64,000 nt of DNA from Odoribacter sp. (GTDB taxonomy: Bacteria; Bacteroidota; Bacteroidia; Bacteroidales; Prolixibacteraceae), in assembly GCA_013824715.1 (NCBI GenBank), contig PNOH01000013.1, forward strand, positions 1 to 64,000. The letters are read 5' to 3'. This document shows, piece by piece, positions 45,809 to 61,188 of this stretch. The position numbers were made by a program, and so were the translations under genes. The notes under the pieces were generated by a model. That model was not told the origin of the DNA, made no database searches, and was given only the letters and a program-made list of their open reading frames with translations. Numbering within the stretch: the stretch's first letter is position 1; each line of letters opens with the position of its first letter.

Positions 45809-48289
45809 TTATTCTTTCCTTAAAAATAGCCAGATTCCAAATAAAATATTTACCAAAGCAATGGCTTGTACCGATGAAATAATGCCTAGTTTCGGTACCA
45901 GGTAAATGGCAACTACAAACGCGCCAAGCGCTGATCCAAATAAGTCGTAACTGTATGTTTTTCCTGAAATGTCGGCATAACTGCCAGTCCGGCAAAGGCT
46001 TGCCTGAGTGAATTGAAATCCGGTTAATCCGCCAATCAGCACAACGGATAATAAATACAATGAATAGACGACCGCCTGAGGCAATTCAGCCATTCCCGAA
46101 GAAAATAGAACAAAACTGGTTGCGGCTGCAAAAACGCCAATCATAATTTGGGTAACAGGCAGATAATTCTTTTCCGGTGACTTAATGAATGATTTTCCAA
46201 AGAAAGATCCGGTCGAAAGACCAAGCATAAAACCTGTAAAGACAAAACTGGTAAGCAGATAAATGTTTCCAAAGAAAACCTGCAATCCGAAAAGAAGGAG
46301 AATTTCCAGTCCCGTAGCCGAAAATCCAGTCAGGAACATGGCTTTGGAAGGAGCGCTTCCACTAAAAAAAATGAACAGAGTCAGCGCCCCGGCAACAACT
46401 GCCATCAGCCAGTATTTCCCTTTGAACTGACTCAGCCAGTAGGCCAGTTGCTGATGATACGAGACCGGGTTCAGGTTTTCGTTGATTTCAGCAACCGGAT
46501 TTAATGCCGCAAGGATGTTTTCCGCCCGAAGTTTCAGCAACGAATCATCGAGATAATAGGAATTGACATAGCGGTTTTCAATTCCTTTATCCTGAACTGC
46601 CCGGGCAATATTGGAAGTCAGAGGAGCGTCGGATGCCAGGAAATAATTTTTCTCGCCCGGAAGGATAATCACATTCTGAAATATTTTTTTCAAAGTTGCA
46701 TACAGGGTTGAATTCAGGTCAACAGCCTCGGTATTCATATAGTTAGGCGGAGCCTGTATTCCAAACGACAATACAGCGCCATGTGAAAGTTTCTGCTTCA
46801 GGAGTTTATAAAATTCCAGCGTGTAAAACCTGTTCGACTGCAGTGTGGAAGGGCCCGGCAGGTTCAGGATAGCAACATCATACGAACTGGTGGTTTTGCG
46901 AATAAACCGCAGCGGATCGGATGCAAAAACGTTCAGGTTTTCATCTGTCAATTTCCGGAGTGTATCTTTCATAAGGTCGAGCAGCCATCGGTTGTCTTCC
47001 ACATAATCAATCGAAACCGTGCCGTATTTCCTGATCTCAGCCAGTTGGCCGGAAAGACCTCCGGAAACAAGTAATACCTTCTCCGGATGAGGGCGCTGAA
47101 GCATGGCAAAATGAACAGCCTCTTCATTCAGCATAAAATTCTCGGAATCGAACAACAGCACATTGTTGTTGTAAACACTCCATAAGTTTTCGCGCCGGGT
47201 AATCACTATATTTCCGTGAGGCGAATCTTTCGAAACCTCAATTTCCTGATTGGGATACACCAGACTTCTGATATTCTTTTCAGGATGAAAAAACAGCAGG
47301 ATGAATGCCGGGATTACGACTACCATAGGCAACCAAATCCATTTTTTCACGGCTTGTTTCAGATTGATCAGGAAAAGAACCGAACCATTTAAGATAGCCA
47401 GAACCAAAAGGCTTTCGATGGACGAAAAAACAAAAATAAAAAGCAATCCGCTGAGCAAACCCCCTGCCATGCTGCCAACCGACTCAAACCCATAAACCGG
47501 GCCGGTTTCGTTTTGGTTCCTGATTTCAGAATAACAGTTGGCTATGAAAGTAAATAGGAATCCGCTCACCAGGCAAAACGGGATCAACAGCAACAGCGAA
47601 GCAAAAAAGATTTGAAACACACTGATCATTGCCCCGATGGGGAAGACCATATTTTTGAGGAAATTGATGAGGAATGAGGTAACGAAAGGCATAATTGAAA
47701 GGATAAGAAGGCTGGAAACGATAACGGGATATGCTTTTTTTATTCGCAGCGGAAACTTCCCAAGGTATGCGCCGAGCCCTGTCAGAACCATCCAGTTGGC
47801 AAGCATCAGCCCGATGACCAGTTCGTTGCCGTTAAAAACTGACAGGAACTCGCGCAGCAAAATAATTTGAGTGATAATGGAAGTGCTTCCCAAAAGAAAT
47901 GCTGATATCTTTAAGAATCTTGTATCCAAATTTTTTGTCCTTGCAACTGTTAGCCGCGCTTCTTTTCTTTTTTGGCTTTTTAAAAGGTGAAGATAGTAAC
48001 CCAGGTGCCACCAGAAATGAAAAAAACCTATGACAGCCATACCGATACCAAACCCAACATGGTAGCCAACCAATTGATCGTAAAAAGGAATCACCAGTTT
48101 GTAATTAGTTTTTACGACCATCAGCAGTCCTATTAATGCGGTTATGAGGAAGGAGGTCAGCAACAAAACATTCCAGAATTTCCGGTGGTTTGCCTTGCTT
48201 ACCAATCCCATTCGCAAAAAAGCGAATGACAGCGAGTAAAACAGAATGACCAGAATACTGATCGGAAAAAGAGGATATGCGGTGTTCAT
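45809..48289 (-). CDS. Polytopic membrane protein with a spermidine-synthase-like domain
   Basis: The 826-residue protein has about six to eight N-terminal membrane helices (to about 340), a soluble Rossmann domain (about 345-600) and about six more helices at the C-terminus. The soluble part follows the spermidine synthase pattern: VLLVSGGLSGQLAEI for the cofactor loop, VSIDYVEDN for the strand-2 acid, then YDVAILNLPGPSTLQSNRFYTLEFY. In true synthases the last motif has a catalytic aspartate (DxxDP). Here it is asparagine, so polyamine synthesis is doubtful. It lies in line with amrS and the Memo-AMMECR1 gene, implying a joint role. Function unknown. Confidence 0.72.
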   Translation of the reverse strand: MNTAYPLFPISILVILFYSLSFAFLRMGLVSKANHRKFWNVLLLTSFLITALIGLLMVVKTNYKLVIPFYDQLVGYHVGFGIGMAVIGFFHFWWHLGYYLHLLKSQKRKEARLTVARTKNLDTRFLKISAFLLGSTSIITQIILLREFLSVFNGNELVIGLMLANWMVLTGLGAYLGKFPLRIKKAYPVIVSSLLILSIMPFVTSFLINFLKNMVFPIGAMISVFQIFFASLLLLIPFCLVSGFLFTFIANCYSEIRNQNETGPVYGFESVGSMAGGLLSGLLFIFVFSSIESLLVLAILNGSVLFLINLKQAVKKWIWLPMVVVIPAFILLFFHPEKNIRSLVYPNQEIEVSKDSPHGNIVITRRENLWSVYNNNVLLFDSENFMLNEEAVHFAMLQRPHPEKVLLVSGGLSGQLAEIRKYGTVSIDYVEDNRWLLDLMKDTLRKLTDENLNVFASDPLRFIRKTTSSYDVAILNLPGPSTLQSNRFYTLEFYKLLKQKLSHGAVLSFGIQAPPNYMNTEAVDLNSTLYATLKKIFQNVIILPGEKNYFLASDAPLTSNIARAVQDKGIENRYVNSYYLDDSLLKLRAENILAALNPVAEINENLNPVSYHQQLAYWLSQFKGKYWLMAVVAGALTLFIFFSGSAPSKAMFLTGFSATGLEILLLFGLQVFFGNIYLLTSFVFTGFMLGLSTGSFFGKSFIKSPEKNYLPVTQIMIGVFAAATSFVLFSSGMAELPQAVVYSLYLLSVVLIGGLTGFQFTQASLCRTGSYADISGKTYSYDLFGSALGAFVVAIYLVPKLGIISSVQAIALVNILFGIWLFLRKE

Positions 48290-48941: not shown

Positions 48942-50441
48942 CTATTCTTCCTCTTCTTGGAACACCAGCGCTTCGAAGGTGAACAGTTCGGCTGTTTTCC
49001 AGCCGTTCCAGCCGATTCCGGCCTTATCTTCGGCACAATGCCCCAGAAATTCTTCCTTGCTCCAGCCTGTTGATGTGGCAACCTGAGGCAAAAATGTACC
49101 CATTGATTTTCCTTGCTTCATGTATATACCTTGTTTCCCCAATTCGAATTCGTCAATTGATTTGATCCGTTTCAAAGGTGTCAGCACCGAAATTTCAATG
49201 TGCAACTGGTTAATCTCATTCTCCAGAACTTTGTCGAAGCGATAATCCCTGGTAGCAGAAGCCACGGCCACTGACTGTACCACCTTCCAGAGTGGCTGGT
49301 TTGGCTCAAAACGGCCGATACAACCCCGCAAAATGTGATTTTTGCTAAGTGTGACAAATGCACCACACGGGGTTTTTACACTAACACGCAGGTTGGAAGT
49401 ATCAACTTTAGGAGTAGTTCCTTTTTTGATATATTCTGTAATGGTTTCCCGGGCAAGTATTAGCAGGTACTTTTTATCCTCGCTGCTGATCGAAAATTGA
49501 TTGGGCTCATAGTGTGCTTTTCCCTCGTAAAATGAAATGGCATAATATCCAACTACACGGTCCTTTCCACCATACGACGAGTCGCCGGAGTTTTTATACT
49601 GAATCAAATCAACTGAAATGCCTCTTATTTGTTCGGTCATGTTGAGCAAGGTCAGCACCGAACTCCATCCGCACAAACTGGTTACCAAACCCGGAATGTT
49701 TTTCTTTTCGTTGCTATCCAGTGCGGCAATCAGCTTCGGGGCCTTATTGCTTTGAATGGCCTCAGCAGTTGTCTGGTCAGCTTTTCGTGCGTCTTCATAT
49801 TCAGGGTAATGCGAAAAATCACTGCTGATCACAAAAAGGTTTTTTTTATTCAGGTATGGTCTAAAAACCTCGGCCAGTTTTTGGGCCGTTTCAACTGTTG
49901 CTGACCCAATGATGACTGGCACAATCTTAAAATCCGTTTTCAGGTGAACCTGCAAAAATGGCAATTGTACCTCGATGCTGTGCTCATTTTTGTGAGGTTC
50001 GGGATAGTCCTTCAGGATTTTATTTTCTGCAACCAGCTTTTTTGCAAAATCCACATCAACAGGAACAATGCCAAGCGGTGTTTCGTAATTTCCGGAACAA
50101 TAAACCGAAGCGCCGTTGAATGAGGTGGTGTGGCTCGAACCAATGACAAAAATCCGCTCAAATTTGAGGTTGGGATCAATTTGGTTAAAAGCCGAAGCCG
50201 CTACTTCACCGCTAAAAACATAACCGGCATGAGGAACTACAATGGCCAGCGGAGAATTTCCTGACTTTCTTTTCATGGCCTTTGAAAAAAACACCTGCAA
50301 CTGGGCTTTTAATTCGGCCGGTTTATCGGTATAAAATCGGCCGGCGGCATAAGGTTTTCGGTTTTGAAGTGTTTCCATAGCTAAACTTTTTGCACAAATT
50401 AAACTTACCAAAACCACGGTAATGAAGTGTTTCGCTTGCAT
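48942..50441 (-). CDS. Exported Memo-AMMECR1 fusion (AmmeMemoRadiSam proteins B and A)
   Basis: The 499-residue protein has a clear Sec signal peptide (1-22) followed by a Memo domain (about 25-305) and an AMMECR1 domain (about 315-499). Memo metal ligands are in place: His71 in VVPHAGYV, His104 in GSSHTTSF and Cys257 in SLCGWSS, matching the human iron-binding set. The AMMECR1 part has the LRGCIGRF motif. Memo and AMMECR1 are elsewhere separate or fused and are usually treated as cytoplasmic. Here export is indicated. It is the first gene of the module. A TAACTTTA box at 50461-50468 may be its promoter. Confidence 0.88.
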   Translation of the reverse strand: MQAKHFITVVLVSLICAKSLAMETLQNRKPYAAGRFYTDKPAELKAQLQVFFSKAMKRKSGNSPLAIVVPHAGYVFSGEVAASAFNQIDPNLKFERIFVIGSSHTTSFNGASVYCSGNYETPLGIVPVDVDFAKKLVAENKILKDYPEPHKNEHSIEVQLPFLQVHLKTDFKIVPVIIGSATVETAQKLAEVFRPYLNKKNLFVISSDFSHYPEYEDARKADQTTAEAIQSNKAPKLIAALDSNEKKNIPGLVTSLCGWSSVLTLLNMTEQIRGISVDLIQYKNSGDSSYGGKDRVVGYYAISFYEGKAHYEPNQFSISSEDKKYLLILARETITEYIKKGTTPKVDTSNLRVSVKTPCGAFVTLSKNHILRGCIGRFEPNQPLWKVVQSVAVASATRDYRFDKVLENEINQLHIEISVLTPLKRIKSIDEFELGKQGIYMKQGKSMGTFLPQVATSTGWSKEEFLGHCAEDKAGIGWNGWKTAELFTFEALVFQEEEE

Positions 50442-50569
50442 GGCTAAAGGTTTAAAGGAATAAAGTTACTACATATTTGAAGGAATCGAACTGTCGGGCG
50501 TTTGTTTATGAGCCGCTACAAAACTATGGCCGCATTGTATTACTTTTACGAAGTTCAAAAAGATACACT

Positions 50570-52768
50570 GTGAGCCAAAAAATTTTGCTGATCACTCCGC
50601 CGTTTACGCAACTGAACACACCCTATCCGGCAACGGCTTACCTGAAAGGATTTTTAAATACCCAAACTATTTCTTCCTATCAGTGCGATCTGGGTATCGT
50701 AACTATTCTGGCTTTGTTTTCTTCAGAAGGATTGAAATCGCTTTTCTCGGAACTCGCAACACGAAACCCGCAACTAACAGATAACACCCGGCGCATCTAC
50801 AATCTTCGCGCAAGCTACATCCAGACCATTGATCAGGTCATTGCCTTTTTGCAGGAGAAGAATGTTGTATTGGCTCATGTGATTTGCGAAGGAAATTATT
50901 TGCCCCAAGCTTCAAGGTTTGCCCAAACGGAAGATATGGAATGGGCATTCGGAACGATGGGAACCCGCGACAAAGCCAAGCACCTGGCCACGCTTTACCT
51001 CGAAGATTTATCGGATCTGATAGTGGAAGCCGTTGATCCGCATTTTGGGTTTAGCCGCTATGCCGAACGACTGGGCCGGTCAGCGGCAACCTTCGATGAA
51101 TTGAATGCTGCATTAAATTCACCGGAAAGTTTTATCGATCGGCTTATGTTGAAACTGCTTCAGGAGAAAATTGAACTCTGCAAACCTACCCTGGTGGCCT
51201 TTTCAGTTCCATTCCCCGGAAATTTGTACAGCGCATTTAAATGCGGACAATACATAAAAAAGAATTTTCCTGAACTGAAAATTGTGATGGGCGGTGGTTT
51301 TCCAAATACTGAATTGCGTTCATTGACTGATCCGCGGGTTTTTGATTATTTCGATTTTATTACCCTCGACGATGGCGAAACTCCTTTGCTGAACCTGATT
51401 GAATACCTCGACGGAAACCGCACCAAAGCAGAACTGAAAAGAACTTTTGCGTTGGAAAACGGCGAAGTTGTTTACCTGAATGGCTCAACACAAGCCGACT
51501 TTTCACAGTTCGAAGCCGGAACTCCGGATTATTCCGATTTTCGACTGGACAGCTACCTTTCGGTAATTGAAATTGTGAACCCGATGCACCGCCTCTGGAG
51601 CGATGGCCGCTGGAACAAACTCACGCTGGCCCATGGTTGTTACTGGGGAAGATGTACGTTTTGCGATACTTCGCTCGATTACATCCGCCGATATGAACCC
51701 AACACCGTGCAGGTTTTGTGCAACCGAATCGAAGAAATGATCAGCCAGACCGGGCAAATCGGCTTTCATTTTGTGGATGAAGCTGCACCGCCAGCTCTCA
51801 TGCGCGCTTTGGCATTGGAAATCATTCGCCGGAAACTTACCGTGGTTTGGTGGACAAACATCCGCTTCGAAAAAAGCTTTACTTACGACCTGTGTTTACT
51901 CCTCAAAGAATCCGGCTGTATCGCGGTTTCCGGAGGTCTGGAAGTGGCCTCCGACCGACTGTTGGGCATGATCAATAAAGGTGTGAGCGTGGCTAAAGTT
52001 GCTAAAGTGACCGACAATTTCACCAGGGCCGGAATCATGGTTCACGCTTACCTGATGTATGGATTCCCGACTCAAACGGCCCAGGAAACCATCGATTCGC
52101 TGGAAGTGGTGCGGCAGTTGTTCGAAGCAGGAGTGATTCAGTCCGGTTTCTGGCATCAGTTTGCCATGACTGCCCACAGTCCGGTTGGTCTGAATCCGTC
52201 TCAGTTTAAGGTGATAATTGAAAATGAAAAATCCGGAACATTTGCCAACAATGATTTGATTCACAGCGATGCAACCGGAGCAAATCATGAACTTTTCAGT
52301 GAAGGGTTAAAAAAATCGCTGTTCAATTACATGCATGGCATTTGTTTTGATTTTCCGCTTCAGGATTGGTTCGATTTTAAAGTACCCAAAACGACTGCTG
52401 CTCCGAACTACATTCAGGAAGCCATTGATCAGCAGGAATATGAACCGGCCAGTCCGAATGCTAAAATCGTTTGGCTGGGTGGAATTCCATTGATCCGAAT
52501 CTATACCAGAAAAAAGAAAAACAAATCATTTGAAATGGCTGAACTCACCTTCCCAAACAAAAAAAAGGATTTGGTGATTCAGTTGAAACAGCAGGAAGGG
52601 AAATGGTTATTTGCACAAATTCCTGAACTTTCAGTAGATAATTCAATCCAAATTACCTTTGGTGAACTCGAAAAAAGCTTCGAACAACACACCGGCAACG
52701 ACTTTGTACTTTTCTGGAATAGCCCGGCGATGAAGGAATTGCGGGAAAATGGGTTGCTGATGTTGTAA
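50570..52768 (+). CDS. B12-binding-type radical SAM protein
   Basis: I prefer the GTG at 50570 (732 residues): conservation begins at SQKILLITPPF, and a TACTTTTA promoter-like box at 50541-50548 falls inside a longer frame starting at 50477. The N-terminal half resembles a cobalamin-binding Rossmann domain (KPTLVAFSVPF, KIVMGGGFPNTE, LDDGETPLLNL) but lacks the DxHxxG histidine. The radical SAM motif near residue 357 is CYWGRCTFC, a C-x4-C-x2-C spacing instead of C-x3-C-x2-C. A TIM-barrel core follows, with a C-terminal domain of about 150 residues. Substrate unknown. Its divergent position beside the AmmeMemoRadiSam genes may be coincidental. Confidence 0.78.
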   Translation: MSQKILLITPPFTQLNTPYPATAYLKGFLNTQTISSYQCDLGIVTILALFSSEGLKSLFSELATRNPQLTDNTRRIYNLRASYIQTIDQVIAFLQEKNVVLAHVICEGNYLPQASRFAQTEDMEWAFGTMGTRDKAKHLATLYLEDLSDLIVEAVDPHFGFSRYAERLGRSAATFDELNAALNSPESFIDRLMLKLLQEKIELCKPTLVAFSVPFPGNLYSAFKCGQYIKKNFPELKIVMGGGFPNTELRSLTDPRVFDYFDFITLDDGETPLLNLIEYLDGNRTKAELKRTFALENGEVVYLNGSTQADFSQFEAGTPDYSDFRLDSYLSVIEIVNPMHRLWSDGRWNKLTLAHGCYWGRCTFCDTSLDYIRRYEPNTVQVLCNRIEEMISQTGQIGFHFVDEAAPPALMRALALEIIRRKLTVVWWTNIRFEKSFTYDLCLLLKESGCIAVSGGLEVASDRLLGMINKGVSVAKVAKVTDNFTRAGIMVHAYLMYGFPTQTAQETIDSLEVVRQLFEAGVIQSGFWHQFAMTAHSPVGLNPSQFKVIIENEKSGTFANNDLIHSDATGANHELFSEGLKKSLFNYMHGICFDFPLQDWFDFKVPKTTAAPNYIQEAIDQQEYEPASPNAKIVWLGGIPLIRIYTRKKKNKSFEMAELTFPNKKKDLVIQLKQQEGKWLFAQIPELSVDNSIQITFGELEKSFEQHTGNDFVLFWNSPAMKELRENGLLML

Positions 52769-52793: not shown

Positions 52794-53135
52794 ATGAAAG
52801 ATGTATTAACATTCAAAGGTTTTATCGGATCGGTACATTTTAGTACTGATGACCGGGTTTTCTTCGGCAAAATTGAAGGTATAAATGATTTGGTCACCTT
52901 CGAAGGCACAACCGTTGACGAACTTGAGAATGCATTTAAATCAATGATTGAGGAACACATCAATGATTGTAAAGAAGAAGGGAAATCAGTAGAAAAATCT
53001 TACAAGGGCAGTTTTAATGTCCGGATTAGCCCGGATTTACACCGTCAAGCAACACAAATTGCCAGTGTTGAGGGAATAACTCTGAACCAGCTTGTTCAAA
53101 GGGCTATTCAGCGCGAACTCGAAACGGGAAATTAA
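52794..53135 (+). CDS. HicB-family antitoxin-like protein, orphan
   Basis: The 113-residue protein has a partial RNase H-like HicB domain (VHFSTDDRVFFGKIEGINDLVTFEGTT, then ELENAFKSMIEEHI) and a C-terminal ribbon-helix-helix DNA-binding domain (FNVRISPDLHRQATQIA...LNQLVQRAIQREL). HicB normally neutralises the HicA mRNA interferase, encoded within a few bases. No HicA-like frame (a small protein with a conserved histidine) lies on either side, so this is an orphan, perhaps acting as a regulator. Its stop codon overlaps the stop of the convergent lipid-kinase gene by 4 bp. Confidence 0.8.
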   Translation: MKDVLTFKGFIGSVHFSTDDRVFFGKIEGINDLVTFEGTTVDELENAFKSMIEEHINDCKEEGKSVEKSYKGSFNVRISPDLHRQATQIASVEGITLNQLVQRAIQRELETGN

Positions 53136-54082
53136 GATATCAGATCTAAATCATCAAAGGCAAAGGATATACTGCAAGGTAAAAAGCCAACCGGATCGCC
53201 ATCAGCTTCCACTTCCACCTGTTGGGGCGATGATAATTGGACCTGTTGGGAATAGTCGAGAGAAAGGTAGTTACTGTTTATAAAGGGCTTTCCGCTATAA
53301 ACCTTTCGAAGGAGTGGAACAATGCAAAAGAGATTTAAATTTTGGACGATTAATCTGTAAAATTTCTTTCCCTGGTCAGTGAAATGCACCGGGACCTGAA
53401 TCCCTGAAGCAATATATGGAGTAATCCCAATGGATAAATTGGTTAGTTTGCTCAGGCTAATTTCACGACCATTTTCCTCACAGATCACTGGAACAGATTT
53501 GAATCGAACCAACAGTCCAACCAATGATAAAAGTGTACCCCAAAAGTCGCCCAATTTGCGTCGGATGCCACCATTGGCCTTACGAGCCAGCATGGCGCCC
53601 AACCCAATATTGGCGCAACAAACAAAATAATGAACTGTTGATTGATGCATAACTTCCATTGATTCAGTCAAATCAGGCGGTTCAAACGAGATCATCCCGA
53701 CCGGAATAGTAATATATTTTCCTTTTAGAATGGAATCAACTGCCTCGTCAATATTTACAGGAATGTCATAGCTTCGGTTAAAATCCGGACTGGTACCGGT
53801 ATAAATCACTCCAAATTTAGCTTCCGAAATCCGATGTCCATCATTCGTATAAAAACCGTTTACAACGGCATTTATAGTTCCGTCACCTCCGACCGCCACA
53901 ATGGTTTTGTATCCTTTCAGGTTGGCATCACGCGACAAAAGGGTTGCATGATCCAGATCCAATGTGTTATGGTATTCAAAATCAACACCGCTTTGGGTGA
54001 TCAACTTGATAATCTTGTCGAATGTTTGCCGACTTCGGCCCGAATGTGAGCCGGGATTCATGATCAGGAAAATATCTTTCAT
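53132..54082 (-). CDS. Diacylglycerol kinase-family lipid kinase
   Basis: The 316-residue protein has the catalytic GGDGT (65-69, in AVGGDGTINAVVNG) and the N-terminal FLIMNPGSHSGRS phosphate-binding region of the DAGK/YegS/ceramide-kinase superfamily. Members phosphorylate hydroxyl groups of diacylglycerol, sphingoid bases or ceramide. It is the last gene of an eight-gene operon that also contains an alpha-oxoamine synthase and an acyl carrier protein, so a sphingoid- or ceramide-type lipid made by its neighbours is the preferred guess for the substrate. No signal peptide. Likely peripheral at the inner membrane. Confidence 0.82.
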   Translation of the reverse strand: MKDIFLIMNPGSHSGRSRQTFDKIIKLITQSGVDFEYHNTLDLDHATLLSRDANLKGYKTIVAVGGDGTINAVVNGFYTNDGHRISEAKFGVIYTGTSPDFNRSYDIPVNIDEAVDSILKGKYITIPVGMISFEPPDLTESMEVMHQSTVHYFVCCANIGLGAMLARKANGGIRRKLGDFWGTLLSLVGLLVRFKSVPVICEENGREISLSKLTNLSIGITPYIASGIQVPVHFTDQGKKFYRLIVQNLNLFCIVPLLRKVYSGKPFINSNYLSLDYSQQVQLSSPQQVEVEADGDPVGFLPCSISFAFDDLDLIS

Positions 54083-54123
54083 GCAAAGGATTGTTTATTA
54101 TTTTGACTGAATATCATCCAAAC

Positions 54124-55299
54124 TCAGGGATGTTTCATTTGCAGTATGGTTTCTTCGGCCCGTTGAATGATTTCTTCGCGCATATTGGCCGCTGCAATCA
54201 ACCTGATCCGTTCTTCATTCTGAGGAACCGAAGGATACACGAAGGCGGTGGTCATGATATGTTTATCCCAAAAGGATTTTGACAGTTGGATGGTTTCAAG
54301 CGAATTGCCTGATTTAACCGAAGTAATGGGCGCTTTTCCGTTGGTCAGATCAAAGCCTGCGGAAATGAGCGCTGCTTCAATACGTCGTTTCACATTCCAC
54401 ATGCGTTTGCTGAGTTCCGGAAATTCAACCCTGATGATGTCAAGTACCGTTTCGACACCTGCCAAAGCTGAAGGCAGTATGACAGTTGAATATACCAGGC
54501 TTGGGCTGTAGTATTGCATCCACTTCATCAGCGATGCCTTGCCGCAAATTACACCACCAATGTTGGCCAAAGCTTTACCGAGCGAAGCAGTATAAATTCC
54601 CTGATAATCAGAAATTCCCGAATGCTCCAGAATTCCCCTGCCGCTGGCCCCCAGGACACCAATCCCATGCGAATCGTCCACAACCGGAATGGCATCGTAT
54701 TTCAAACAGAGGTCGTTGATTTCTTTGAACGAAGCTATTGTGCCTTCCGTAGAGAAAACCGATTCGGTGACCACAAAGCTTGTCCGGTATTTACCGCTTT
54801 TCTGCAAAAGCATTTCCAGATAATCCATGTTATTATGCCTGAAAGGAGAAATCTTACAACCTGAATTTTTTATTCCTTCCAACAACGAAGAATGGGCACA
54901 GCGGTCAACAAACACGATATCTTCAGGATTGGCAATGGCATTGAATAGCCCTAAATTGGCCTGATAGCAAGATGGATAAATCAAGGTTTGTTCAGTTCCG
55001 GTGAAATCTGAAATCTTTTGCTCTACGCGGTGGTGCAAATCGGAATAGCCGCTGCAAACGGGTGTTGCGCACAATGAAGAACCATATTTTTCAATCGCTT
55101 TTATACATGCGAGTTTCAACTGCGGATGGTTGGCGATTCCTAAATAATTATTCGAGGCCAAATCAATAAAATGTTCTCCTTCGATGATTATCTCATCGCT
55201 TAATTCCGATTGAACCAAATGGTAAAAAGGATTATGCATGGCTTTTTCAACAATACCCAAATCCAGTTCAAACCGGTTGTAAAAATCAATTTTTTTCAT
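54124..55299 (-). CDS. Alpha-oxoamine synthase (serine palmitoyltransferase / KBL / BioF family)
   Basis: The 391-residue fold-type I PLP enzyme has His136 stacking over PLP (CAHSSLLEG), Asp208 and His211 in VVDDSHGIGVLG and the Schiff-base Lys242 in SLGKALANIGG. The family condenses an amino acid with an acyl thioester. BioF, KBL and serine palmitoyltransferase are hard to tell apart by sequence alone, but the acyl carrier protein 6 bp upstream, the lipid kinase downstream and the lack of biotin genes favour long-chain aminoketone (sphingoid-base-like) synthesis. Which amino acid is used (serine, cysteate, glycine or other) is open. Confidence 0.83.
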   Translation of the reverse strand: MKKIDFYNRFELDLGIVEKAMHNPFYHLVQSELSDEIIIEGEHFIDLASNNYLGIANHPQLKLACIKAIEKYGSSLCATPVCSGYSDLHHRVEQKISDFTGTEQTLIYPSCYQANLGLFNAIANPEDIVFVDRCAHSSLLEGIKNSGCKISPFRHNNMDYLEMLLQKSGKYRTSFVVTESVFSTEGTIASFKEINDLCLKYDAIPVVDDSHGIGVLGASGRGILEHSGISDYQGIYTASLGKALANIGGVICGKASLMKWMQYYSPSLVYSTVILPSALAGVETVLDIIRVEFPELSKRMWNVKRRIEAALISAGFDLTNGKAPITSVKSGNSLETIQLSKSFWDKHIMTTAFVYPSVPQNEERIRLIAAANMREEIIQRAEETILQMKHP

Positions 55300-55305
55300 G
55301 ATTTA

Positions 55306-55542
55306 CTATTTATGTATCTCGGCTTCCAAAATCTCAATAATATCTTGTACCGTTTTAATTTTCCCGACTTCACCCATATCAACCTCGTACGAAAATTCCG
55401 ATTCAATGGCATTGATAACCATCAGCATATCCAGCGAATCAAGAAACAGATCGTCGGTTAAACTCATATCCGTAGTGATGGGATATTTGATTTCTTTAAC
55501 CGATCGGACAATCTCAATAACTTTTTCTTCTGTTGTTTTCAT
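55306..55542 (-). CDS. Acyl carrier protein of the aminolipid operon
   Basis: The 78-residue acidic protein has the phosphopantetheine site DSLDM (Asp35-Ser36-Leu37-Asp38-Met39) in a four-helix ACP pattern. It is separate from the usual fatty-acid-synthesis context (no fabD, fabF or fabG beside it) and sits between the OYE-family and alpha-oxoamine synthase genes, 21 and 6 bp away. It probably carries the acyl chain given to the synthase, as the dedicated ACP does in bacterial sphingolipid loci. Confidence 0.85.
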   Translation of the reverse strand: MKTTEEKVIEIVRSVKEIKYPITTDMSLTDDLFLDSLDMLMVINAIESEFSYEVDMGEVGKIKTVQDIIEILEAEIHK

Positions 55543-55563
55543 GGGTTATTTGATATTATTGGT

Positions 55564-56796
55564 TTATATTTCTATCGGGGAAGGGATGTGTGTCCTCGGC
55601 TGATGGTGATAACATCTGGTAGGATGCAACGAATCGCACATCACGGCACATTGGTTACAACTTACACATTTGCTCTCGTAAAACGGATCTTTTTTCAGTT
55701 TCAGTACCAGGTTGGGCTCTGTAATAAACGGGCGGCACAGGCTTACAAAATCGATCCCGCAATCGTGGATCGCATGATTGATCTCACTTCCGCTTCTGAA
55801 ACCGCCCACTACAATAATCGGGATACGTGTAACTTTACGAGCAAGAAGCGCATAAGGCAGGTTATACATGGGTTGAAGCACAAAAAACCGTTTTTTCATC
55901 GAAGGAAAAATCATGTTTCGGGCAATCCATTTATAGAAAGGACTCTTCCCTTTATAAATATTGTTTTCAGCTAGGATACATTCACCGGGAAAATCACCCC
56001 TGAAAATATTAAACGGAGCATCCATCGTGCCGTAGCTGATTTCGATGGCGCTGACCTGCATCTTGTCGAGAAAATCAATCAGATGAAGAAACTGATCCTG
56101 CGAAAAAGGTTTTTTGTAATCGTCGGAAGCGCTGATCTTGACCAGTATCGGGAAATCATGACCACATTTATCCCTGATATTTTCAATTATTTTTTGCAGG
56201 AAGAGTGTTCCCACATTAGTTACAAGATCGGGTTTAAACTCGTCTGTCCGGTTGTTTATTGAAGAAAGCAGAAACTGATGTATCAGATAGCCATGTGCAG
56301 CATGTAACTGAACACCGTCAAAACCTGCTTTTTGGGCAAGTAATGCTGCCTTGCCAAACGAACTAATTAATCCAGATATCTCTGGAATTGTCAGTACATG
56401 GGGTATTTCTTTAAAGTATTCCGATTTTTTCGATGAAACCCCAACCACCGGGCATCCGGTAACCGAACTCAAGGTTTGACGGCCGGTATGGGCAATTTGC
56501 AGAAAAGCCTTGCACTCGTACCCATGCAACATTTCTGTCAATCCCGAAAAAGAGTTCATCATTTCCGGAGAATCGCATCCGGCCTGCCCGGGATGCATCG
56601 CTTTGCCATTCCGGGTGACATAGGCAAAGCCGGTAATAACAGCGGCAACATCGTGGGCAGCTAAATGCTTGTAAATATGGAAGTACGACTCAGTCGGAAA
56701 ACCATGTTCGTCGGCAGCTCCTTCAAACGTGGCCGACCGGATAATCCTGTTTTTCAGCCTGACTGAGCCAATATATGCCTCTTCAAATATTTCCAT
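55564..56796 (-). CDS. Old-Yellow-Enzyme-family NADH:flavin oxidoreductase with a C-terminal cysteine cluster
   Basis: The 410-residue protein is a TIM-barrel OYE: LKNRIIRSATFEG at the N-terminus, AHTGRQT, GFDGVQLHAAHGYLIHQFL with the substrate-binding His pair, and VVGGFRSG near the C-terminus. Cys377, 380, 383 and 387 (CVSCNQCAVMC), with Cys395, resemble the 4Fe-4S site of 2,4-dienoyl-CoA reductases. The FAD/NAD domains that normally follow are absent, so electrons must come from a partner. It would reduce an activated double bond or a ketone-conjugated alkene on the operon's product. Gaps to neighbours are 21 and 9 bp. Confidence 0.82.
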   Translation of the reverse strand: MEIFEEAYIGSVRLKNRIIRSATFEGAADEHGFPTESYFHIYKHLAAHDVAAVITGFAYVTRNGKAMHPGQAGCDSPEMMNSFSGLTEMLHGYECKAFLQIAHTGRQTLSSVTGCPVVGVSSKKSEYFKEIPHVLTIPEISGLISSFGKAALLAQKAGFDGVQLHAAHGYLIHQFLLSSINNRTDEFKPDLVTNVGTLFLQKIIENIRDKCGHDFPILVKISASDDYKKPFSQDQFLHLIDFLDKMQVSAIEISYGTMDAPFNIFRGDFPGECILAENNIYKGKSPFYKWIARNMIFPSMKKRFFVLQPMYNLPYALLARKVTRIPIIVVGGFRSGSEINHAIHDCGIDFVSLCRPFITEPNLVLKLKKDPFYESKCVSCNQCAVMCDSLHPTRCYHHQPRTHIPSPIEI

Positions 56797-56805
56797 GGTG
56801 GTATT

Positions 56806-57825
56806 CTAAGCCTTGATGTTCGTGTGTAAGTTGAACAGGAAGCCTACAAAAACATAGGTTATTAAGAAGAGGATTAATCCCAACTCGGGATTGAAAAGCG
56901 ACACAATACTTGCCTGACCGCAGGTACATGCCCTGAAATTGGTGACCAGTGAATAGTAAGTCATTTCCCCCTGCGGATTTTGGTAATACAAAACGCCGGT
57001 CCATACCTGCAGGAACAAAGTCATCAATCCAAGAATGATGAAGATGTTATTCAATTCAATCTGAAATCCTTTAAAAACGTAATACCCGATCAGGAATAGA
57101 ATAGAGGGCAAAAATGACGCTGCAATAGAAATATATTTGTTTGTAATCAATCCATATTCAACCACAATTGTATTTTTGCCAGCAGCTTTGTCTCCGGTAT
57201 AATCCTTGAAATAGGTGTAATAGGTCATCAGGGCATTCATAATGGCAATTAAAGCCAGAGCGCTGAAACGGCTTCGCGTAAAATAAATTTCCATTGGACC
57301 ACAGGCATAAAACCCATACAGCGCACACATCGAAATCATTACACCAAACACAATATTTCCCCATATTCCATGCCCTTTGGCATATTCATAAATCACGTTT
57401 AAAACGGCTCCGGCCACCAGGGGAAGAATGGCCACAGGCTCAAGATAAAACCAGGTAACCAGAAAAATGACCAGCATTAATAACAAGGACAGGGCCAAAG
57501 CATGATAACGGTTAAGCTCACCTGTAACCATTGGCCGCTGCGGGGCATTAATTTTATCCTCCTTATAACCCAGAAAATCGTTCACTATCTGGTTAATTCC
57601 CCAGGCCAGAAAAAGTATAAGAATAATGACAATCTGTTTGGTAAGCGAGGCCGGGACTTCAATTGTTCTTACAAGTCCTGATGTTCCCCTTTCTCCAATC
57701 GTATTGGCAATAAACTGATAATGGGCTACGCCAACCCACCCGGCAATTCCAGTCACAAAAGAATAGTAGATGCGCATGGATTTTCCATAAGCTTTCAAAA
57801 ATCGGATTGTTGCGGTTCTGTTCAT
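56806..57825 (-). CDS. UbiA-family prenyltransferase
   Basis: The 339-residue membrane protein has eight to nine hydrophobic segments and both UbiA aspartate motifs: Asn82-Asp83 to Asp90 in NDFLGYKED (in place of NDxxDxxxD) and Asp208/Asp212 in KDYTGDKAAGK. Arg97-type and Lys216 residues fit diphosphate binding. Such enzymes attach a prenyl or polyprenyl chain from its diphosphate to an aromatic ring or a sugar/glycerol acceptor. No quinone-ring genes are nearby. In this operon the acceptor could be the aminolipid or its head group. Gaps of 9 and 12 bp show co-transcription. Confidence 0.85.
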   Translation of the reverse strand: MNRTATIRFLKAYGKSMRIYYSFVTGIAGWVGVAHYQFIANTIGERGTSGLVRTIEVPASLTKQIVIILILFLAWGINQIVNDFLGYKEDKINAPQRPMVTGELNRYHALALSLLLMLVIFLVTWFYLEPVAILPLVAGAVLNVIYEYAKGHGIWGNIVFGVMISMCALYGFYACGPMEIYFTRSRFSALALIAIMNALMTYYTYFKDYTGDKAAGKNTIVVEYGLITNKYISIAASFLPSILFLIGYYVFKGFQIELNNIFIILGLMTLFLQVWTGVLYYQNPQGEMTYYSLVTNFRACTCGQASIVSLFNPELGLILFLITYVFVGFLFNLHTNIKA

Positions 57826-57837
57826 TGTGACAGGTTT

Positions 57838-59139
57838 TTATAGTTGTGATAATTTTTCATAGAATCGGGTGGGCTCACCCCTGTCCCAGCCAGCATAAAT
57901 TTGCTCCGAAAGCTCCGGCTTTAAAGGCAGGTTCACAGATCCATTCTCAAGATACTTTTCGTAAATTTCGCTGGCAAACTGATCGCAGAGCAGGCATTGC
58001 CCCGGTGTATGGAATTCTGTGCGCATGTTGTAGTAGATCGTGTCGAAATCATCGGTGGCGACATTTCCAAATGAAAAATTCAGGAACTCACAGGGTTGCA
58101 AATCGCCTTTGGCATTGATATAAAAACGGTCAGTCCCGCCGGCTGTACATCCAAACATTTCAGGCTCTTCCTCCATCAGCATGCAATAAACAAACGGAAA
58201 CCCGATATGAGTTTTCGCCTGATTGTATCTGGTCACTTTTTCCTTTACAATCGCTGCATCTTCAGCATTAAATTTTTCGATTTGGCCGTGAAGCCAGCCT
58301 CCGGCAGTTTTGGGCTTGATCAACTGAACCAGACAACCACCAAACTGTTTCTGCAAATCAAGTATCCGCTCGAAAGTGCCATCTTTGAAGCTTTCAGGCA
58401 ACAAACAGGTGTTAAACATGACCGGAATATTCCCGGCATGACACATGGCAATCCCTTTAACCATGGACGACCAGGCTTCGTCGTTGCCCATAAACGCATT
58501 CATTTTTTCTGGTGAATCGGTGTGCAGCGAGAACATTACTCCCATCAGGTTCTTATTTTTCCGAAGCATTTTCAATCGTTCAGGAGTCATGCCAAAACCG
58601 GTTGAATTAATCAGGATTTCCGATCGGTCGTCAATGGCATTGCATACTTGAAGCAGCCTGTCGAATACCAGAAATGGTTCGCCGCCTTCGAGGTTGAAAA
58701 ATGCCACGCCCTTGTCCTGTAATTTGCGTACAACCTTCACCAACACTTCAATGTCAACATCTTTTCCTTTGTCGTATTTCTGATAGCAATGTTCACAATT
58801 GAACCGGCATGCCGAAGTGACTGAAATCAGTACCGAAACCGCTGGCATTTTCTCATCAAACACAGTCACTTTATCGCACGCGGTATAAAAGGCTTTTGTC
58901 GGAAAGAATGGCACGTACAGGTTTACTTTAGTCAGTCGGCCAATTTTCACATATTTGTTTTCTTTCATTTTTGAAAAGAAGTACAGCAGTCTTTTCAGTA
59001 TCCGGGCATAATGCCGAACCTTGATTTTCCCGGCCAGGAGCCGGGCTGTATAATGAAGAAAGACTGATCGCTGGATTCGTAAATCTTCCAACCACTTGTG
59101 AGTCCCTATTAAAAATTTTATCCGTTCCATGTCATTCAA
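57838..59139 (-). CDS. Radical SAM protein with SPASM-like C-terminus
   Basis: The 433 residues have a helical N-terminal extension of about 100 residues, then Cys111, Cys115 and Cys118 in ACRFNCEHC (C-x3-C-x2-C), the FNLEGGEPFL motif and a C-terminal cysteine-rich part (FGCTAGG, LQPCEF, GQCLLCDQF) like SPASM or twitch domains holding extra clusters. Such enzymes modify peptides or small molecules. No precursor peptide gene is evident, so a small molecule or lipid head group is likelier. The ATG at 59139 overlaps the SDR gene stop by 4 nt. An ATG at 59130 is a possible alternative start. Confidence 0.82.
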   Translation of the reverse strand: MNDMERIKFLIGTHKWLEDLRIQRSVFLHYTARLLAGKIKVRHYARILKRLLYFFSKMKENKYVKIGRLTKVNLYVPFFPTKAFYTACDKVTVFDEKMPAVSVLISVTSACRFNCEHCYQKYDKGKDVDIEVLVKVVRKLQDKGVAFFNLEGGEPFLVFDRLLQVCNAIDDRSEILINSTGFGMTPERLKMLRKNKNLMGVMFSLHTDSPEKMNAFMGNDEAWSSMVKGIAMCHAGNIPVMFNTCLLPESFKDGTFERILDLQKQFGGCLVQLIKPKTAGGWLHGQIEKFNAEDAAIVKEKVTRYNQAKTHIGFPFVYCMLMEEEPEMFGCTAGGTDRFYINAKGDLQPCEFLNFSFGNVATDDFDTIYYNMRTEFHTPGQCLLCDQFASEIYEKYLENGSVNLPLKPELSEQIYAGWDRGEPTRFYEKLSQL

Positions 59140-60182
59140 ATTAACTGGTTTTCCTTATACCATTGCACTGTTTTTTTGATACCATCCTCCAAAGAGTATT
59201 GGCAACTAAAAGAGAGCTCGTCTTCAGCTTTTTGGGCGCTGTAACAAATCGAATCGTAAAACATGTTTACCCTTGCACGGGTCAGAAATGGAGCGCTTTT
59301 CATTTTCAGAAGTGATGCAGCCAGTTCGGCTAAAAAACCAATGGGCCATGCAATTGCTTTGGGAATAATCAGTGGCTTTTTTACTCCCATTTCCCGACAG
59401 ATCAGCCTGAAGATTTCATCTTGTTTACAAACAGTTTTATTCCCGATGATGTAGCTGTTGAACCCATTGGGTGCATGTTGAATTGCCAGATGAAATGCCC
59501 GCGCCAGGTCGCGCACATAAATGACATGGAACTGGTTTTTTGTACTTCCGGGACCGAAAGGCATACGCGACTTTACAAACTTCATGTATTCGTAAAACCC
59601 TGAAGAAAACTCCCTTTCTCCGTACACCCAAACTGGCTGAATAACTGTTACATTTAAATTGTGTTTGATGGCAAATTCCCCGGTCTCCTTCACTGCTATC
59701 GTCTTACTGATGCGGTAATGGTTCATTCCCGATGGCCAGACCTGATCCAGAAAATAGGGATAGCGTGGATTATGGGGCGATTGTTCATCTTTGGGAATCT
59801 CGCAATCTTCTTCACCATAACAGGAAACTGAACCTGTGGTGATGATCCGTTTGATGTTATTGGTTAGGCAGGCCATCAAAACGTTTCGGGTTCCGGTGAC
59901 ATTCGTATCATAGAAATCCTGCCACTGGCCCCAATCCGTGACTTTCCCGGCGTCGTGAATGACAACTGAAGCGCCTTTTGTGGCCAGAATTAATGAATCA
60001 AGGTCTGTTATGTCGGCATATTCCAACTTAACCGGAAGCGTTTGAAGAAAGTGCGGAGTACTCTTTTGCCGGATACCACATACAACCTGATAACCCTGCA
60101 TTGAAAAATATTCAGCAAGGTGGCTACCAATGAAACCGTTGGCCCCGGTCAGAAAGATAATATCATCAGTTGTAAGATTCAT
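59136..60182 (-). CDS. NAD(P)-dependent epimerase/dehydratase (3-beta-HSD-like extended SDR)
   Basis: With the ATG at 60182 the protein has 348 residues and begins right before the Rossmann motif TGANGFIG (12-19). The active-site Tyr156 and Lys160 lie in HYRISK, with serine near 118-120 (TTGSVSCYG). The C-terminal domain is that of the extended-SDR 3-beta-hydroxysteroid dehydrogenase/isomerase-like branch. In Caulobacter an SDR of this kind (CerR) reduces a keto-ceramide in a locus with serine palmitoyltransferase and an ACP, so a similar ketone reduction is plausible. It overlaps the ThiL-like gene by 17 nt and the radical SAM gene by 4 nt. Confidence 0.83.
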   Translation of the reverse strand: MNLTTDDIIFLTGANGFIGSHLAEYFSMQGYQVVCGIRQKSTPHFLQTLPVKLEYADITDLDSLILATKGASVVIHDAGKVTDWGQWQDFYDTNVTGTRNVLMACLTNNIKRIITTGSVSCYGEEDCEIPKDEQSPHNPRYPYFLDQVWPSGMNHYRISKTIAVKETGEFAIKHNLNVTVIQPVWVYGEREFSSGFYEYMKFVKSRMPFGPGSTKNQFHVIYVRDLARAFHLAIQHAPNGFNSYIIGNKTVCKQDEIFRLICREMGVKKPLIIPKAIAWPIGFLAELAASLLKMKSAPFLTRARVNMFYDSICYSAQKAEDELSFSCQYSLEDGIKKTVQWYKENQLI

Positions 60183-61188
60183 TCCGTAGAAAATCAAGCA
60201 GTTTGTTTAAATAGTCCTGCCTCGAATTGTAATCACGTGCAGAAACATTGTATCGTTCCAGGTTCCAAACCTTGCCATCATCAGTGAGAATCCGGGTTTC
60301 AGCTTTTGTGAATTCACCGATCAGGGCGAACTTCAGGTCTTTGGCATGAGCAACTTTCAAAAATGCTTTATTATTTTCCGGAGGAACAGCAAACACCAAT
60401 TCGTATTCACCACATTCCCCCATAAAAAGCGCTTCCTTAGGTACCTTCAATAGTCGGCACAGCAACTTTGTCTCCGGAAGATAAGGAAGATTTTCAACTT
60501 TATACCCGAGTCCGTTAAGTTCGGCAAGCGTGTTTAATGCATTCAACACCCCATCGCTGGAGTCTATGCAACAGGAAGCCCATTGCCCGATCAGTTGCGA
60601 TTCCTTTATCCGGACCGGGAAATAGTTGTCCACGAACTGGCTTTCCAACTGCACGAACTGTTCGCGATCAAAAAGCGAAAACGCAGCCTCTATATTTCCT
60701 GCACCGATTGCACCGGTCATATAAATGTGGTCTCTTTCTGTTGCGCCTTTTCTGGAGATCGGGTTAGGCGAAAATCCCAGGCAGGTACCAGTGTAACTCC
60801 AATGGCTGGCCATACCCATATCGCCTCCAATTGAGCCAATTTCACAAATTTTTAAAACAGCAGCAATGCCCTGAGCCAATTTTGTAACATACTCCCGGTC
60901 CCACGACGAGGAGGCTCTGACGGCATGGGCATAAGCATACGGAATACCGCCAACCGCCAGAATATCGCTAATAGTTGCAGCAGCAAGATTGTATCCTAAC
61001 CGGAATGGGTTATCGGTACGAAATAGATCCTCGTCAGAAAATTCGTCGGTAGTGAAAAGTAATTTGCCGGTTCCGCAGGTCAAAACTTCAGCGTCTGACT
61101 CAAAGAACTTGTTTTGCATATATGGGCTGACTGGAAGCTCAGTCAGAAAAATATCAATCAGTTCCTTTTCTCCCAGACAGTTTTTCAT
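60166..61188 (-). CDS. ThiL / AIR-synthase-superfamily protein
   Basis: The 340 residues show the PurM/ThiL two-domain pattern: a TTDEFSDEDLF metal/ATP region near the N-terminus, AAATISDILAVGGIPYAYAHAV with the central aspartate, a glycine-rich SIGGDMGMA and, in the C-terminal half, CIDSSDGVLNAL. Members are ATP-dependent kinases or phosphate-transfer enzymes (thiamine-phosphate kinase, AIR synthase, SelD, HypE). It is the first gene of the eight-gene lipid operon and no other thiamine gene is near, so phosphorylation or activation of an intermediate of that pathway is more likely than thiamine metabolism. The leader upstream has a TAATTTTT box at 61237-61244. Confidence 0.78.
   Translation of the reverse strand: MKNCLGEKELIDIFLTELPVSPYMQNKFFESDAEVLTCGTGKLLFTTDEFSDEDLFRTDNPFRLGYNLAAATISDILAVGGIPYAYAHAVRASSSWDREYVTKLAQGIAAVLKICEIGSIGGDMGMASHWSYTGTCLGFSPNPISRKGATERDHIYMTGAIGAGNIEAAFSLFDREQFVQLESQFVDNYFPVRIKESQLIGQWASCCIDSSDGVLNALNTLAELNGLGYKVENLPYLPETKLLCRLLKVPKEALFMGECGEYELVFAVPPENNKAFLKVAHAKDLKFALIGEFTKAETRILTDDGKVWNLERYNVSARDYNSRQDYLNKLLDFLRNESYN

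Follow-up and report, generated by a model that had tools for sequence, protein, structure and literature searches.

Introduction

The question raised by this locus is what eight tightly packed genes, among them an alpha-oxoamine synthase (AOS), a UbiA-family membrane enzyme and two kinases, could make together. The genes lie on the minus strand at 53132–61188 of the window, that is, of the whole 64,000-nucleotide stretch analysed here (Odoribacter sp., Prolixibacteraceae; assembly GCA_013824715.1, contig PNOH01000013.1, positions 1 to 64,000 of the forward strand). The answer favoured below, tentatively and at somewhat less than even confidence, is that they form one biosynthetic operon for a membrane-associated, AOS-derived metabolite, in which a ThiL-like and a DAGK-family kinase act as a diphosphate relay feeding UbiA. 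All eight open reading frames (ORFs) are intact; in transcription order, with their Pfam domains in brackets, they are:

60166–61188, minus strand: ThiL-like kinase of the PurM/ThiL superfamily, 340 aa, the operon's first gene (AIRS and AIRS_C)
59136–60197, minus strand: extended SDR oxidoreductase, 353 aa, with an alternative ATG start near 60182 (Epimerase/3Beta_HSD)
57838–59139, minus strand: radical SAM protein, 433 aa, whose C-terminal cysteines are of the SPASM type (Radical_SAM and SPASM)
56806–57825, minus strand: membrane prenyltransferase of the UbiA family, 339 aa, whose Asp motifs are altered to NDxLGxxED and YTYFKDYxGD (UbiA)
55564–56796, minus strand: flavoprotein of the OYE type, 410 aa, with an Fe-S-type cluster of cysteines at its C terminus (Oxidored_FMN)
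55306–55542, minus strand: acyl carrier protein (ACP), 78 aa, DSL motif with Ser36 (PP-binding)
54124–55299, minus strand: AOS, 391 aa, in a clade of its own (Aminotran_1_2)
53132–54082, minus strand: lipid kinase of the DAGK/YegS family, 316 aa, carrying the signature GTSPDF and DGD (DAGK_cat)

From the DAGK end to the ThiL end, the genes are separated by gaps of 41, 6, 21, 9 and 12 bp and then overlap by 4 bp (radical SAM/SDR) and 32 bp (SDR/ThiL-like); the SDR start codon is TTG, with an in-frame ATG 15 bp further in. An earlier sequence-only reading of the window had listed eight minus-strand genes of these families with gaps of no more than 41 bp or overlaps, and each of the eight ORFs indeed stands at that place and on that strand, with Pfam in agreement. 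Because all eight are intact and their ratios of nonsynonymous to synonymous substitution (dN/dS) against Prolixibacteraceae UBA9940 (L021) range from 0.04 for UbiA, the lowest of the eight, to 0.23 for DAGK, every gene looks to be under purifying selection; the UbiA proteins of the window and L021 are 98% identical.

Conservation, distribution and gene order

A scan with a UbiA alignment, using one genome per species, gave 206 pattern matches and 106 relatives, of which the best 80 loci, ranked by UbiA match, were kept; the locus counts given here describe these best 80 of 106 relatives only. For 39 of the 80, UbiA is flanked on either side by 9 kb of sequence or more, and in these full-context loci the presence of each family was scored by tblastn with family-specific thresholds chosen by the analyst. 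The seven core families (UbiA, OYE, radical SAM, SDR, ThiL-like, DAGK-like and AOS) lie together on one strand in 31 of the 39, and in 25 of them they are joined by both ACP and a ketosynthase, making nine families; the loci without the complete seven are L031, L054, L056, L064, L069, L082, L091 and L098. Conserved co-occurrence, which the sequence-only reading had named as support, is thus found far outside the window. Its picture of a sphingolipid-like core with four extra enzymes is, however, reversed by the counts for single families: the supposed extras are present in 39 (UbiA), 36 (radical SAM) and 35 (OYE and ThiL-like, each) of the 39 loci, next to 36 each for SDR, AOS and DAGK, while ACP (31) and the ketosynthase (28) are more dispensable. 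The term eight-gene operon likewise fits the window but not most relatives, in which a ninth gene, the ketosynthase, stands between ThiL and SDR (28/39); it is missing from the window and from L021.

The gene set is found in three gene orders and is therefore not one frozen arrangement. In Bacteroidota and Ignavibacteria the order is ThiL-(KS)-SDR-rSAM-UbiA-OYE-(ACP)-AOS-DAGK, where KS is the ketosynthase and rSAM the radical SAM protein; neither ketosynthase nor ACP was found by tblastn in the Ignavibacteria clusters. Common elsewhere, including in Desulfosporosinus and on the complete chromosome of Petroclostridium sp. X23 (L043), is UbiA-OYE-ACP-AOS-DAGK-ThiL-KS-SDR-rSAM, which consists of the two blocks of the Bacteroidota order, swapped. 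A divergent order, called type II, runs UbiA-rSAM-DAGK-ThiL-OYE-AOS-SDR without ketosynthase or ACP (Auribacterota L087, Lentisphaerae L093 and Armatimonadetes L099); among type II loci, L091 and L096 yielded no OYE with tblastn, and the sequence of L092 ends before the SDR. In a metagenome-assembled genome of Neomarinimicrobiota (L064), UbiA-OYE stands among unrelated genes, and ACP-AOS-DAGK-ThiL-KS-SDR-rSAM follow in a row on another contig. The joint inheritance of blocks that lie apart is good evidence for a shared pathway, subject to the reservation that this genome is a bin. Smaller departures also occur: OYE is missing from its place in L031, ACP abuts UbiA in L013 (the same contig), and tblastn found no ketosynthase in L041 and no OYE in L069. 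One apparent gene fusion, in Peptoclostridium litorale DSM 5388 (L054:10025-11308), was rejected as a deletion remnant: UbiA is kept there and is followed by a short ORF matching the start of OYE and the end of the radical SAM gene, probably what is left after an internal deletion of the operon.

The UbiA orthologs carry 18 phylum labels as given by submitters (tree of 72 rows, 4 unlabelled). This tree needs 21 phylum changes against a minimum of 17 and 39.8 for shuffled labels, showing strong clustering by phylum; some transfer would be compatible with it, but bins may carry wrong labels. Closer to the window, the radical SAM gene has eight matches at E ≤ 1e-20 in 198 same-order genomes. Four of these genomes carry the gene set, namely the window's own and three others whose radical SAM proteins are 51–59% identical; the other four matches are radical SAM proteins 25–27% identical, of which one with wide flanks (L016) has no other operon gene nearby and the remaining three were viewed in loci of about 3–4 kb. 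A phylum sample of 395 genomes gave, at E ≤ 1e-40, the window's genome and three weak matches, and UbiA occurs in 4 of 23 genomes of the genus, once as a fragment near a contig end. Since so few same-order, phylum-sample and genus genomes carry it, the operon is an accessory trait in Bacteroidota. No match to UbiA was found in 72,556 plasmid records.

Rarity within the order, with only 4 of 198 genomes carrying the set, its own included, is what could be said for unrelated genes that happen to be neighbours. The same set nevertheless recurs in many labelled phyla, also in split form, and selection appears to act on all eight genes, so that chance neighbourhood is refuted by conserved co-occurrence and is given almost no weight.

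Among the neighbours listed, regulators and a transporter accompany some clusters. In 19 Bacillota loci an HTH regulator family, found by all-against-all clustering of neighbours (one member scanned, Pfam HTH_3), stands directly upstream of UbiA, and a MarR-type family (Pfam, one scanned) occurs in five other loci, adjoining UbiA in some and lying up to about 2 kb away in others; together they suggest an inducible product. A transporter family of 750–770 aa follows UbiA-OYE in four Riflebacteria/Ozemobacter loci (L094:5920-8211, L097, L098 and L100; MMPL by Pfam, L094 scanned), in which the other operon genes are out of view or differently arranged, and its position fits a lipid product. The alpha/beta hydrolases beside a few clusters form no family of four or more loci and were set aside. 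Many of the named hosts are presumably anaerobes, which fits the Fe-S enzymes of the operon; speaking against a strictly anaerobic role, the window's host has a Cox10-like UbiA beside a COX2-like ORF (both by eye).

The alpha-oxoamine synthase and the sphingolipid pathways

The AOS has the features of its superfamily: the pyridoxal phosphate (PLP) lysine, the stacking histidine, the aspartate and histidine of the DD-S/A-H motif, and a fold-type I domain. Lys242, His136, Asp208 and His211 are kept in at least 93% of 70 rows; for this and the other families, rows are ORFs matching the family anywhere in a locus, a few of which (for example, a second ThiL in L091) lie outside the operon. It reaches the cut-off of none of the 11 NCBIfam models listed, scoring 302 bits for bioF (cut-off 426), 291 for KBL PRK06939 (460), 257 for the Bacteroidota serine palmitoyltransferase (SPT) model NF047600 (640) and 204 for ALAS (339), and the AOS of one Desulfosporosinus member scores alike. 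A tree of 49 rows was built from 38 of the 64 cluster AOS longer than 340 aa, picked for spread, with three SPT rows and two each of KBL, BioF and ALAS as references, SulA and PigH-type AOS being left out; its bootstrap had not settled. In this tree a branch of length 1.58 (support 100/100) sets the 32 type I cluster AOS apart from all other rows, KBL, BioF, ALAS and SPT included. A second clade (100/99) comprises the six type II AOS; it lies closest to SPT and a long-branched AOS of the window's host, at a fork that stays open (90/76). A separate clade is an outcome that the sequence-only reading had named as support, and the outcome it named as damaging, grouping with KBL or BioF, did not occur: the enzyme stays below both cut-offs and outside both clades. 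Two AOS branches for two cluster types weaken any claim of a common AOS substrate.

The sequence-only reading had also proposed a sphingoid- or capnine-like base, and an operon for a variant sphingolipid or sulfonolipid (capnine) would draw its appeal from the Caulobacter ceramide locus (spt, ACP, reductase and ceramide kinase CC_1160), which likewise encodes an AOS, an ACP, an SDR and a lipid kinase together. That locus reportedly also has genes for a ceramide synthase and an acyl-ACP synthetase, and CC_1160 is taken here to belong to the DAGK-type family. None of the nine families of the operon is a ceramide synthase or an acyl-ACP synthetase, nor is there any N-acyltransferase among them; moreover, UbiA, OYE, radical SAM and the ThiL-like protein belong to the core here. 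CC_1160 is reported to make ceramide-1-phosphate, and SulA, the cysteate acyl-ACP transferase that begins sulfonolipid synthesis and also an AOS in Bacteroidota, is reported to take acyl-ACP and to carry Lys281 at 30 residues after its PLP Lys251, where Spt has Ala (PMC11324152 / PMC9304779). The operon AOS has Thr272 at this position, 30 residues after its own PLP Lys242; the three SPT rows have Ala there, and the BioF and ALAS rows have Thr. The host encodes an SPT above cut-off elsewhere (687.7 bits, G000:C2:143181-144350), adjoining an adh_short SDR, as well as a KBL above cut-off (640 bits). Because the AOS falls outside the SPT clade and an SPT above cut-off is encoded elsewhere in the host, a sphingolipid or capnine core is not supported by the sequence comparisons; with Thr272 and the score of 257 against 640 bits added, this explanation is largely refuted and very improbable, even though the type II AOS lie nearest to SPT at the open fork.

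Two further sets of AOS genes were seen in these genomes. A fourth AOS of the host (L019:8453-9700, contig C29 of the window's genome) lies on a very long branch and is below every NCBIfam cut-off listed, with 311 bits for the SPT model. The Neomarinimicrobiota genome behind L064 has two more AOS genes close together (L152), 38–43% identical to type II AOS.

The two kinases

Enzymes of the ThiL family phosphorylate a monophosphate, and relatives of DAGK phosphorylate a lipid alcohol. The ThiL-like protein belongs to the same sequence family as ThiL and scores 136 bits with TIGR01379 (cut-off 184), compared with 34 bits each for the HypE and SelD models; thiamine monophosphate kinases make up seven of the nine nearest PDB sequences listed, including the best five. 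At least 93% of the 59 ThiL-type ORFs in the loci retain D32, D48, D75, D123, R146, D209 and S211. Most of these metal and phosphate residues are common to ThiL, aligning to the same residue in chains 1vqv, 3c9r or 5cc8, although D123 is Asn in 1vqv and 3c9r, and GECGEYEL stands in place of the GGEDYQL of these two chains. A housekeeping ThiL was considered and ruled out, the score being below cut-off and a separate ThiL of 332 bits, above cut-off, being present elsewhere in the genome. A third, distant ThiL-family gene of the host (G000:C1:28154-29050) scores 72 bits.

In the DAGK-like protein, GGDGTIN and G-SPD are kept in at least 93% of 61 rows, GTSPD and DGD also appear in the type I consensus, and GTSPDF is unusual. 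The ThiL-like and DAGK-like genes are adjacent in 44 of the 57 loci that have both, type II clusters included, with a median gap of −1 nt. Since DAGK relatives phosphorylate alcohols and ThiL phosphorylates monophosphates, the pair would make a diphosphate. The same logic, from alcohol to monophosphate to diphosphate to a UbiA enzyme, is known from plants, where phytol kinase and then phytyl-phosphate kinase provide the diphosphate; the operon kinases come from other families, and for the operon this logic is a proposal.

The UbiA enzyme

UbiA enzymes use diphosphates. The operon protein belongs to the UbiA superfamily by Pfam domain and by fold (predicted model with a predicted local distance difference test, pLDDT, of 91.2). 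Foldseek places the model closest to the archaeal digeranylgeranylglyceryl phosphate synthase MjDGGGPS (6m31, E 4.9e-07), followed by the UbiA proteins of A. fulgidus and A. pernix and then by a membrane phosphoribosyltransferase (8j8j, E 0.006), which presumably uses phosphoribosyl diphosphate; MjDGGGPS, which we take to prenylate a phosphorylated glycerol, is the nearest solved relative by sequence too. The canonical motifs NDxxDxxxD and DxxDxxxD are replaced by NDxLGxxED and YTYFKDYxGD: in the alignment to MjDGGGPS, its NDIFDIEID and DFEDMEGD correspond to NDYLGRKED and YFKDYKGD, with Gly86 at the middle Asp of the first motif and Tyr205 at the first Asp of the second. Neither residue varies among 33 aligned orthologs, and each is retained in at least 93% of 73. 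By comparison, a host paralog that looks MenA-like by eye has NDYGD.

These features bear on the explanation ranked next after the diphosphate relay, and close to the idea of the sequence-only reading, namely a prenylated phospho-aminolipid: UbiA would add a polyprenyl chain to the AOS-derived base, the DAGK phosphate would serve as head group, and the ThiL-like protein, like PurM, would activate an amide or acid so that a ring can close. The likeness of UbiA to an archaeal lipid synthase speaks for it, as does the ceramide-1-phosphate that CC_1160 is reported to make, and the MenA-like paralog makes a polyprenyl donor likely to be at hand. The canonical Asp of both UbiA motifs is replaced, however, and the ThiL-like protein is much nearer ThiL than HypE or SelD, so that we regard this explanation as possible but unlikely.

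Redox enzymes, carrier protein and ketosynthase

For the SDR the best NCBIfam models are HpnA (137 bits) and OleD-type models (103–105 bits), all below cut-off, and Tyr161 and Lys165 are kept in at least 93% of 59 rows. In the radical SAM protein, C111, C115 and C118 (CxxxCxxC) and C331, C350 and C385 are invariant in 33 sequences. Its AlphaFold2 model (pLDDT 92.6) has SkfB (6efn), SuiB and BlsE as nearest folds, with query template-modelling (TM) scores of 0.39–0.52 among the best 50 rows, and these matches are too general to name a reaction. H165, H168 and Y170 together with C377, C380, C383 and C395 of the OYE protein are kept in at least 93% of 73 rows; we read them, presumptively, as an active site like that of YqjM plus an Fe-S motif like that of FadH. 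D35-S36 of the ACP is kept in at least 93% of 53 rows, a count biased by a few rows that were picked by the same motif.

The ketosynthase of the relatives keeps its Cys-His-His and scores best with FabF (287 bits, cut-off 494). A profile of three such ketosynthases found one match in the window's genome, on another contig (E 8.2e-62). The 25 of 39 loci in which ketosynthase and ACP join all seven core families bring to mind a prodiginine-like hydroxypyrrole, for which PigJ and PigH reportedly provide this type of ketosynthase/AOS chemistry: ketosynthase and ACP would yield a beta-ketoacyl-ACP, the AOS would add serine or glycine, and the amine would close on the distal ketone (leaving a hydroxymethyl arm if serine is used), followed by diphosphorylation or prenylation. 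The intact catalytic triad agrees with this, but the two families are missing from Ignavibacteria and type II clusters, the ketosynthase is missing from the window and reaches only 77 bits with the PigJ model (cut-off 900), and no AOS-ACP fusion was seen in the loci; the hydroxypyrrole route is accordingly rated as improbable, well behind the prenylated phospho-aminolipid.

Proposed pathway and its weighing

In the diphosphate-relay reading, the AOS would first condense an amino acid with an acyl chain carried on the operon ACP to give an alpha-aminoketone, the chain being extended by the ketosynthase where it is present and, in the window's host, by another system. Its oxidation state would then be adjusted by three enzymes, in whichever order: the SDR, the OYE protein and the radical SAM enzyme. 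Subsequently, the DAGK-like kinase would phosphorylate an alcohol and the ThiL-like kinase would turn that monophosphate into a diphosphate. Finally, UbiA in the membrane would use this AOS-derived diphosphate and join the piece to a second hydrophobic partner. Every reaction and substrate, the double phosphorylation and the product are what we infer from the gene set.

Several points weigh against this proposal. A UbiA lacking one Asp in each metal/diphosphate motif could be poorer at diphosphate chemistry, and its donor must ionise, so that the alcohol would need to be allylic or benzylic-like. PurM-type enzymes such as HypE and PurM also carry out ATP-dependent dehydrations and ring closures, and the Bacteroidota order, which the window shares, puts ThiL first and DAGK last. 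Eight of the 39 full-context loci are Desulfosporosinus; the loci are not all independent, and close relatives account for many of the adjacency counts. As for the transporter, only one lineage has it as a neighbour.

No description of the operon or its product was found in the full text of open-licence PubMed Central papers, a scope that leaves aside most subscription papers and all preprints, and each named pathway tested, prodiginine synthesis aside, fails a defining feature. We therefore regard the operon as new as a gene system, with the reservation that the compound it makes may prove to be one already described. Conserved and, within that scope, undescribed, it answers to that much of the undescribed aminolipid operon put forward by the sequence-only reading; the word aminolipid remains conjecture.

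A bolder version, to which we give less credence than to the relay itself, is a new class of membrane metabolite in members of many phyla. Its pathway would comprise seven to nine genes and be partly mobile, the two-kinase relay (DAGK-like, then ThiL-like) supplying a UbiA whose metal site has been rebuilt with a diphosphate that is derived from the AOS and is not an isoprenoid; the product could be a redox-active or structural lipid, mostly of anaerobes. If the relay reading is true, many phyla share a biosynthetic pathway without a known product, which would bring a new branch of AOS, a subfamily of UbiA with changed metal motifs and, possibly, a relay from alcohol to diphosphate in bacteria. 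The whole set forms one short operon in cultured strains such as Desulfosporosinus hippei DSM 8344, D. lacus DSM 15449 and Petroclostridium sp. X23, which makes the reading open to experiment.

Other genes of the window

At the operon's 3' edge, a HicB-family gene lies on the plus strand (52794–53135). It is preceded by a radical SAM protein of 763 aa (50477–52768, plus strand), whose nearest models are a PhpK-type P-methyltransferase and a C-methyltransferase of ribosomally synthesised and post-translationally modified peptides (RiPP), all far below cut-off. On the minus strand, a protein of 499 aa (48942–50441) resembles by eye a fusion of MEMO and AMMECR1, and a protein of 826 aa (45809–48289) has a spermidine-synthase-like domain between stretches that are hydrophobic by eye.

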